From: Aurantimonas manganoxydans SI85-9A1
GTDB taxonomy: Bacteria > Pseudomonadota > Alphaproteobacteria > Rhizobiales > Rhizobiaceae
DNA: 64,000 nt
Assembly: GCF_000153465.1 (NCBI RefSeq)
Contig: NZ_CH672387.1
Location: 2,705,903-2,769,902, forward strand
Direction: 5' to 3'
Below the pieces are notes generated by a model that saw only the letters and a program-made list of their open reading frames with translations, was not told the origin of the DNA and made no database searches. A program made the position numbers and the translations under genes. This document shows positions 4,022 through 48,994 of this stretch, in pieces. Each line of letters begins with the position of its first letter. Position 1 is the stretch's first letter.

Positions 4022-4262
4022 CATTGACGTTTTCCAAACACTTCGGGATTTCTGGCGGCCATGAGTTCAGTCGCAGCAAGGCCTTCGGCCGCCGTCTGAC
4101 GGAACGGAAATTCCATAGGAATTCGGGGTGCTTGCGGCGCGGGGGGGGACGCCAGCCCATGGCCGAACAGAAATATCTGCCGGAACGCTTTCGGCGGACC
4201 GCCGACCGGGACGATCGGCCGATCGCGGCGACGCGCCCGAAGTGGGGAAGTGGGAATGAAAA

Positions 4263-4702
4263 GTGCCAGCCGGCCTGTAAGCCGGGTTCTGTCAGCGGAT
4301 TGACCGCCGGACGACCATTCCTCTGGGACGACCCTTGCGGGCCGCCTCTAGCAACCTACCCGAACGACCGGCCCGGAGAGGGCTGGCGACCCGTCTTGCG
4401 ACGGACCGACCGCGTCGTTCCTATTCGGTCTTGCTCCCGGTGGGGTTTGCCGTGCCGTCGCTGTTGCCAGAGACGCGGTGGGCTCTTACCCCACCGTTTC
4501 ACCCTTACCCCGCCAGCACTGCGGCTCCGTCGCGCTTCGTCGCGCGAGCCGCACTGCAGGCGGGGCGGTCTGTTTTCTGTGGCACTTTCCCTGGGATCAC
4601 TCCCGCCGGACGTTATCCGGCACCGTTTCTCCGTGGAGCCCGGACTTTCCTCCCCCGCCGTCTTTCGACATGTGACGGGAGCGGCCGTCCAGCCGGCTGG
4701 CG
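4263..4702 (-). ncRNA. rnpB: RNase P RNA (M1 RNA), bacterial type A
   Basis: Catalytic RNA of RNase P, which matures the 5' ends of tRNAs. On the minus strand the 5' part carries the hallmark GAGGAAAGTCCGGGCTCC (about 4654-4637), and the 3' part ends ACAGAACCCGGCTTACAGG. The terminal P1 helix is visible: GCCAGCCGG at 4701-4693 pairs perfectly with CCGGCTGGC at 4273-4265, followed by TTTTC. Further conserved pieces are GGGTGAAACGGTG and AGAGCCCACC. The length of about 440 is slightly long for the type. Location upstream of mraZ is as in rhizobia. Ends are set by P1 and may be off by a few bases. Confidence 0.97.
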
Positions 4703-45676: not shown

Positions 45677-46999
45677 TCAGCGCACCACGGTCTTGGGAAA
45701 CGGCGTCGGCCCGCCGGCAGTGTTGGCCTGGACGATGTCGTCGTCGGGGACCTCCCGCGGATCGTGCGCCGCCATCTCGGCGCGCGCCGCCGCCGGCAGC
45801 GCCTCGTCGGCTTCGGCCGTGCGCAGCTTCTTCTGGATGCGGATCGCCCGCATCAGCTCGGCCGCGCTCATGTCGCCGGTCTCCATCTCCTCGCCGTCCT
45901 CGCGGCGGATGACGTCCTGGACGATGCAAAGGATGAAGATCAGCACCGCCGGCAACAGGTCGATGGAGATCGCGCCGGCCCAGGACGGCAGGAAGTCGCG
46001 GGCATAGCGGATGACGGCTTCGGGCGACGACAGCGGCGTGAAGCGCACCGGCACCACCACCGGCCGCGCGAGGATCTCGTCGGCGGCGGCCGCGAGAGCC
46101 TGGCTCTGGGCCTGCACCGCGGTCTCGACCCGGCCCACGACCTCGCTCTGGCGGGTGCGCAGGTCGTCGTCGGCCCCGTCGGCGATCGGTGCGATGAAGG
46201 TGCGGCCGAGATCCTCCGCCGCGCGGCGCACGGTCGGCGCCACCGAGGTCTGCTGCAGGGCGGTGATCAGGCCGGACAGGGCGACCGCCTGCTCGGCATA
46301 GGCATTGGCGCGGTCGGCGATCGGCCCCTGCGAGGACACGAGCTGGCGCATCGCCGCCAGGCGCTCGCCGCCCTCCCCGAACAGCGTCTTGACGTCTTCG
46401 CGCGAGGCGGTGATCTCGCCCTGCAGCCCAGTGAGCTGGTTCGACATCTGGCGCAGCAGCTGCACCACCGTTCCCGAGCCGGACGTGCCGGTGAGAATGC
46501 CCGAACGGGCTTCCTGCTCGGACAGCCGGGCAAAACGCTGCGAGGCGAGCTGGATGTCGGGCAGAAGGCTCTGGGCGGCCAGGGCGTTCTCATGCGCCTC
46601 GTTCAGCTTGCCCTGATATTCCTCGGTGGTGACCGCCAGATGCTGCTCCAGCGCCGCCGCGCCGGCCAGCGCCGCGGCGTTCAGCCAGGACGACATGGCG
46701 ATGATCATCGCCGCGCCGAGGCCCATCGCGACATAGAGCATCCGCCGGCTGCCCGGCTGGCGCACATGCGGCATGAACCGCATCAGATAGGACCAGAAGG
46801 CGTAGATCGCGACGGAGACCGCCGAGGAATAGACGATGGCGCCCAGAAACACCGTCGTCGCCGTGCCGTCGAGCAGCTCGCGCACGCCGAGATAGGTGTA
46901 GACGCCGCTGGCCAGTGCCAGGACGGCCAGCGTGATGCGGGTGGTCGTATCGAGGCGGGTCAACTGCCCGCGCAGCGTATAGGATTGCGATGCGCTCAT
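45677..46999 (-). CDS. Membrane protein with long helical domain, unknown
   Basis: 440 residues. Three membrane helices near the N-terminus (about 22-43, 48-72, 88-115), a ~210-residue Gln/Ala/Glu-rich helical region probably outside the membrane, a fourth helix (about 335-360, ISIDLLPAVLIFILCIVQDV), and an acidic cytoplasmic tail. I recognise no named family. It is directly upstream of, and coupled to, the ClpP-fold protease gene, so it may be its partner or substrate. A CtrA-like box lies 54 bases before its start. Confidence 0.72.
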   Translation of the reverse strand: MSASQSYTLRGQLTRLDTTTRITLAVLALASGVYTYLGVRELLDGTATTVFLGAIVYSSAVSVAIYAFWSYLMRFMPHVRQPGSRRMLYVAMGLGAAMIIAMSSWLNAAALAGAAALEQHLAVTTEEYQGKLNEAHENALAAQSLLPDIQLASQRFARLSEQEARSGILTGTSGSGTVVQLLRQMSNQLTGLQGEITASREDVKTLFGEGGERLAAMRQLVSSQGPIADRANAYAEQAVALSGLITALQQTSVAPTVRRAAEDLGRTFIAPIADGADDDLRTRQSEVVGRVETAVQAQSQALAAAADEILARPVVVPVRFTPLSSPEAVIRYARDFLPSWAGAISIDLLPAVLIFILCIVQDVIRREDGEEMETGDMSAAELMRAIRIQKKLRTAEADEALPAAARAEMAAHDPREVPDDDIVQANTAGGPTPFPKTVVR

Positions 47000-47052
47000 C
47001 GGCCCCTGGCCCTTCAGACATTCGTCGATGCGGGTCGAGCCGCTCAGCGTTG

Positions 47053-47067
47053 TTAACCCGACATTAG
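47053..47067. promoter_or_regulatory. CtrA-type box, one mismatch
   Basis: TTAA-CCCGACA-TTAG, beginning TTAACC as in many known CtrA sites. It is upstream of the membrane protein/protease pair (start 46999, minus strand). Nearby, GCGGTTAACCGC (47116-47127) is a 12-base perfect palindrome of unknown role. Confidence 0.38.
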
Positions 47068-47269
47068 GGCTATCGCATGTTGGCGGGTAGCCGGGTGCCG
47101 CCGAAAGCTGCGCATGCGGTTAACCGCCGCGCCACCCCATCGGTTTTGCCAATCGGCCGATCGGGTTTTGCTATGACGACCAAGCAGAGGCGTCGCCCGC
47201 AGTCATGCATTAAGCGCATGGCTCACATACCGAATTGGGCATGGTGCCGAATCCGCCGATGACTATGTT

Positions 47270-47389
47270 CCACCGCAGTCAGCCGCCGACGGCACCTCCT
47301 CCCGCCGTTTGGCACTGGCTGTTTCCTCCCAAGGGTTTTTCGGAATCCTTCCTAATTCAGCCGGGTTCTCGCGAACCCGGCTTTTTTTC
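47270..47389 (+). ncRNA. Candidate trans-acting small RNA with anti-Shine-Dalgarno loops (alpha-r14-like)
   Basis: About 120 bases with three hairpins. Hairpin 1: ACGGC (47289-47293) and GCCGT (47304-47308) present the loop ACCTCCTCCC, complementary to ribosome sites. A second exposed TTCCTCCC follows. Hairpin 2: AAGGGTT / AATCCTT around TTTCGG. Hairpin 3 is an intrinsic terminator. This layout (three hairpins, CCUCCUCCC in a loop, strong terminator) matches what I remember of the rhizobial alpha-r14/NfeR1 family. The 5' end is a guess; a -10-like CTATGT lies at 47263. The overlapping open frames look accidental. Confidence 0.62.
47359..47389 (+). terminator. Intrinsic terminator of the small RNA
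   Basis: AGCCGGGTTC (47359-47368) pairs perfectly with GAACCCGGCT (47373-47382), loop TCGC, followed by a run of eight T. No protein gene on the plus strand ends here, which itself argues for a non-coding transcript. Confidence 0.93.
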
Positions 47390-47434
47390 TGTCCGGGCCC
47401 TGCCCGCACCTGCGCTTCCGACCATCGCCCACGT

Positions 47435-47462
47435 AAAAAGGCGGCCCCGGGGAGCCGCCTTT
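47435..47462 (-). terminator. Intrinsic terminator of the aminotransferase gene
   Basis: AAAGGCGGC (47437-47445) pairs with GCCGCCTTT (47454-47462). On the minus strand the stem is followed by TTTTTA, 25 bases after the aminotransferase stop. Confidence 0.85.
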
Positions 47463-47486
47463 CGTCACAGAATCAGTTTCGGAATG

Positions 47487-48994
<1,508 letters not shown>

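Follow-up and report, generated by a model that had tools for sequence, protein, structure and literature searches.

The window, a stretch of 64,000 nucleotides, holds a small-RNA gene whose existence our analysis confirms and which is very probably an orthologue of AbcR (alpha-r15), so diverged that its score stays below the Rfam threshold. AbcR is a known regulator of bacteria: by masking the ribosome-binding sites of nutrient-uptake genes, it switches these genes off. Three lines of evidence, namely homology, gene order and promoter, lead to this assignment. In the literature searched, we found no mention of AbcR together with Aureimonas or Aurantimonas. The features of the locus are listed in Table 1.

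Table 1. Features of the small-RNA locus and of its surroundings in the window.
Feature	Position	Strand	Evidence
AbcR-type small RNA gene (diverged alpha-r15)	~47275..47391	+	R1 model, best ar15 match, covariation
Hairpin 1	47275..47322	+	Predicted fold and covariation (7/14 pairs changed on both sides)
aSD1 seed ACCUCCUCCC in the hairpin-1 loop (AbcR M1 region)	47294..47303	+	Invariant in 8/8; TCCTCCC in other AbcRs
aSD2 seed GCUGUUUCCUCCCA, unpaired from ~47323 (AbcR M2 region)	47318..47331	+	CUGUUUCCUCCCA invariant in 8/8
Hairpin 2	47331..47350	+	Predicted fold and covariation (3/6 pairs changed on both sides)
Intrinsic terminator, 10-bp stem (47359-47382) and T run	47359..47389	+	Predicted fold, terminator scan
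Candidate LsrB/VtlR-type operator GCATGGCTCACAT (consensus GCAT-N3-TG-N3-T, one mismatch)	47216..47228	+	8-genome alignment
Putative core promoter region: TGGTGC (relatives TGGcTT/TGGtTT), 16-nt spacer, TATGTT	47241..47269	+	8-genome alignment; inferred
aspC (aspartate aminotransferase), convergent neighbour	47487..48692	-	NCBIfam aspartate transaminase, 569.5 bits, under the model's cut-off of 617
Membrane-protein gene, divergent, upstream of the sRNA	45677..46999	-	Synteny marker; 440-aa predicted product, zero Pfam or NCBIfam matches

The predicted fold of the segment 47275-47391 is unusually stable (MFE -50.5 kcal/mol; not one of 200 dinucleotide shuffles was equally stable, z = -5.6). An earlier note on this DNA had described three hairpins with ACCUCCUCCC in the first loop, together with a strong terminator and a second motif, UUUCCUCCC, left unpaired, and the fold bears this out, with UUUCCUCCC essentially unpaired at 47322-47330. 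The terminator is the sole terminator-like site within 47000-47520. As the same note had claimed, protein genes do not account for it: aspC and the membrane-protein gene both lie on the - strand, so that neither would use a terminator on the + strand. The extent given for the gene, 47270-47389, was correct in place and slightly off at the start, which we put near 47275 because of a -10-like TATGTT at 47264-47269. Transcription of the RNA is predicted from these sequence features.

The region was found in all 8 genomes of the window's genus, the window counted. Covariation among relatives, one of the tests that the earlier note had set for the candidate, is present: in the alignment of these 8 sequences, 97.1% of the cells pair under the proposed structure, and 10 of the 30 pairs are altered on both sides (4.7 +/- 1.4 in shuffles, with 0/500 reaching 10), a signal that vanishes once the structure is slid along the alignment. 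Both anti-Shine-Dalgarno (aSD) motifs are invariant in the 8 genomes, and ACCTCCTCCC and CTGTTTCCTCCCA are kept letter for letter. A protein-coding reading of the stretch was rejected, as members of the genus differ by indels of 1 and 6 nt alongside the covarying stems; the ORFs of the + strand (e.g., 47235-48653) are antisense to aspC, which is part of the case against such a reading.

A scan with Rfam at gathering scores gave no match at the sRNA. The only match at this level in the window is the class A RNase P RNA (4262-4700, - strand, 300.6 bits). With the ar15 model, the sRNA is the best match in the 4.3-Mb genome, at 26.5 bits (runner-up 17.8), below the gathering cut-off of 40 bits for RF02345. 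This cut-off marks curated similarity, and a broader AbcR model does find the sRNA. AbcRs above the ar15 cut-off are present in 79 of the 121 genomes of the family, and we compared 40 of these loci, mainly middle and low scorers from genera other than the window's. In nearly all of them, the first hairpin has TCCTCCC in its loop and is followed by an unpaired part that resembles GTTCCCCTCT, by a second, small hairpin and by the terminator. A covariance model (R1) based on 33 of these 40 AbcRs, with the window's genus left out, matches 8/8 members of that genus at 36.7-43.8 bits, the next match in the window set being at 9.8. The window's own sRNA scores 36.7 bits, with an E-value of 3e-8 in 89 kb and of 1.5e-6 genome-wide, against 0.12 for the genome-wide runner-up. 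The same model gives 7.4 bits on the genome's own ar14 genes and no match on its mmgR.

The sRNA shares with AbcR1 and AbcR2 (RF02345) the aSD in the loop of hairpin 1, that is the M1 region, the second aSD (M2) single-stranded between hairpins 1 and 2, the small middle hairpin, the terminator and the length. It differs from them in its score below the cut-off, in an M2 that reads GUUUCCUCCCA and not GUUCCCCUCU, and in an M1 that ends in CUCCCG. The published AbcR hexamers are CUCCCA for M1 and GUUCCC for M2 (PMC5461406); neither occurs exactly in the window sRNA, which has CUCCCG and GUUUCC instead. The M2 region, UGUUCCCCUCU in canonical AbcRs, is UUUCCUCCC in the Aurantimonas/Aureimonas group. 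The RNAs linked to aspC form a series from UGUUCCCCUCU in Brucella to UGUUUCCUCCCA in the Aurantimonas/Aureimonas group, as in the window, and intermediates at the same position are found in other genera, namely UGUUCCCUCC (L087/L117) and UAUUCCUCCCA (Consotaella). In this reading, the second seed of the diverged AbcR changed from GUUCCCCUCU to GUUUCCUCCCA.

The gene order points in the same direction. The sRNA and aspC converge here, as they do in Brucella, Aureimonas and Aurantimonas, and aspC lies convergent downstream in 12 of the 40 AbcR loci of other genera. The reverse test, in which AspC alone was searched in named genomes and 80 loci were scanned with the AbcR model, gave 11 loci in which an AbcR, encoded on the opposite strand, lies 81-351 nt past the aspC stop (Brucella x4, Paenochrobactrum, Pseudochrobactrum, Paramesorhizobium, Aureimonas x2, Aurantimonas and Consotaella), and 4 further loci with an AbcR about 1.3 kb away. 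The likeness in neighbourhood is one with the Brucella-group loci; it counts against the assignment that AbcR does not adjoin aspC in most of the scanned loci of Rhizobium, Ensifer, Agrobacterium and Mesorhizobium. The membrane-protein gene, which flanks the sRNA opposite aspC, has homologues at the same place both in its genus and in Aurantimonas; the one in Aurantimonas sp. VKM B-3413, at the far side of the sRNA, is 87.8% identical.

The upstream region also resembles that of AbcR genes. The abcR1 gene of A. tumefaciens is activated via GCAT-N3-TG-N3-T by VtlR, which is homologous to LsrB of S. meliloti (PMC7486931), and the S. meliloti promoter PabcR1 has its box at -61 to -49 and needs LsrB for activity (PMC8844928). 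The candidate box of the window spans -60 to -48 relative to the inferred start of the sRNA, as expected of an AbcR1-type promoter. It is found at the same position throughout the genus, perfect in 5 of the 8 members and one base off in the window, L002 and L008, while a perfect box precedes the RNA by about 60-67 nt in 25 of the 40 AbcR loci. A block around GCATGGCTGACAT and the -10-like TATgTt are conserved among the 8 genus members. The scan for E. coli-type sigma-70 promoters upstream of the sRNA found none, which is expected of an alphaproteobacterial promoter. The genome encodes hfq and, directly after trxB, a LysR regulator, which we take to be lsrB-like because lsrB has its place beside trxB and because of its similarity, rather than because it was aligned with a characterised LsrB. 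The sRNA would probably depend on both LsrB and Hfq.

The complements of the seeds occur at the starts of transporter genes. Among the 28 ORFs examined that begin at UGGGAGGA-N-AUG sites (TGGGAGGA), 15 encode solute-binding proteins, against 0/15 for the control Shine-Dalgarno GAAAGGAG (p = 0.0004), the control being a small set of 15 ORFs with a single sequence. The longer GGGAGGAAAC-N-ATG has just two sites in the genome, both at the start of genes for solute-binding proteins, one of the DctP and one of the SBP_bac_1 type. The SBP_bac_1 gene (ABC) carries over its Shine-Dalgarno a 13-nt perfect complement to aSD2, with a predicted duplex of -28.2 kcal/mol. The remaining candidate targets include phaC, a phaB-like gene and the gene of an ABC permease. 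This enrichment fits AbcR, yet it is unspecific, because the ar14 and mmgR RNAs of the same genome would pair at these sites too. We also observed UGGGAGGA ribosome-binding sites on phaC (L225) and on the phaB-like short-chain dehydrogenase gene (L238), so that in this genome aSD RNAs may control the synthesis of PHB.

Taken as an AbcR, the sRNA would work as follows. LsrB/VtlR would bind the GCAT-N3-TG-N3-T box and activate transcription from about 47275. The resulting RNA of about 115 nt, probably with Hfq, would expose two seeds, CCUCCUCCC in the loop of hairpin 1 and CUGUUUCCUCCCA between hairpins 1 and 2. Both would pair with ribosome-binding sites of the GGGAGGA type, chiefly those of mRNAs for solute-binding proteins (ABC, TRAP and TTT transporters), and block their translation, thereby silencing the targets.

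Since the genome has separate ar14 genes and a normal mmgR, the window RNA is a third, separate gene. We considered three other origins for it. That it is a member or paralogue of mmgR/suhB (alpha-r8) is the one that survives best, although we regard it as very unlikely. The 3' two thirds of the sRNA are mmgR-like, with the UGUUUCCUCCC seed followed by a terminator hairpin, and the RF00519 match (47317-47397) is the second best of the genome, at 34.9 bits (E 3e-5). This is under the cut-off of 41 bits, the canonical mmgR lies elsewhere (C1:928608-928685, 58.9 bits), and mmgR lacks the 5' hairpin with the additional seed, aSD1. Moreover, the aspC synteny and the LsrB box belong to AbcR and not to mmgR, and the series from Brucella through Aurantimonas to the window already suggests that the 3' part groups with AbcR.

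Slightly less probable still is that a lineage-specific aSD RNA came to occupy the AbcR locus together with its promoter, or that the 5' half of an AbcR was fused to an mmgR-like 3' half. Such an event would fit an M2 region that equals the UUUCCUCCC of mmgR, and not the GUUCCCCUC of AbcR, and scores that are split between ar15 and suhB. The M2 intermediates of other genera speak against it, since with them gradual change suffices and neither takeover nor fusion is needed.

The earlier note had placed the sRNA in alpha-r14. It was right about the class, since there is good support for an sRNA that acts in trans, exposes anti-Shine-Dalgarno seeds and ends in an intrinsic terminator, and wrong about the family. 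Alpha-r14 RNAs (NfeR1/cuckoo) carry CCUCCUCCC in the loops of all three hairpins, and NfeR1 is likewise activated by LsrB in S. meliloti (PMC10746234). The window sRNA shares with NfeR1/alpha-r14 (RF02344) and the CcsR cuckoo RNAs (RF02791) the loop motif and the anti-SD principle, along with three hairpins and a terminator, but it has the motif in hairpin 1 only, is far under the cut-offs of these models (17.2 bits for ar14, cut-off 58.8), coexists with three canonical ar14 genes in tandem elsewhere in the genome (C1:1667097-1667473, - strand; 87, 74.5 and 74 bits) and is fitted far better by the AbcR model and synteny, which makes this the least credible of the three. The match to RF02278, a toxic small RNA of Betaproteobacteria, reaches 32.1 bits (cut-off 50) and is a local likeness over aSD2 and the terminator, from a different clade and with no further support.

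Two observations concern other RNAs of the genome. The gene just upstream of the tandem ar14 array (L035, C1:1667097-1667473, - strand) encodes what was judged by eye to be a DUF1127-type small protein, an arrangement that resembles CcaF1-CcsR of Rhodobacter. The weak second matches to R1, ar14 and mmgR in the genome look like chance terminators, with the exception of L038 1501-1588 (- strand, C1:2850073-2850160). This is a possible further aSD RNA, in which a terminator comes after a UUCCUCCUCCCAA-loop hairpin; it scores 29.8 bits with the ar14 model and has no LsrB box within 75 nt upstream.

The identification of the sRNA as an AbcR extends the family to a lineage that the Rfam threshold had missed, and the aspC neighbour and the LsrB box provide an independent marker for finding more AbcRs. 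It also shows that a different anti-SD can take the place of the M2 seed, a critical element in Brucella. Tentatively, the AbcR regulon may have been rewired in the Aurantimonas-like lineage, both seeds having become full anti-Shine-Dalgarno sequences and M2 having converged on the mmgR seed; AbcR, MmgR and the ar14 array might then compete for GGGAGGA start sites on mRNAs of solute-binding proteins and possibly of phaC and phaB (PHB synthesis). With a seed common to AbcR, MmgR and ar14 in one genome, such sharing and competition become testable.
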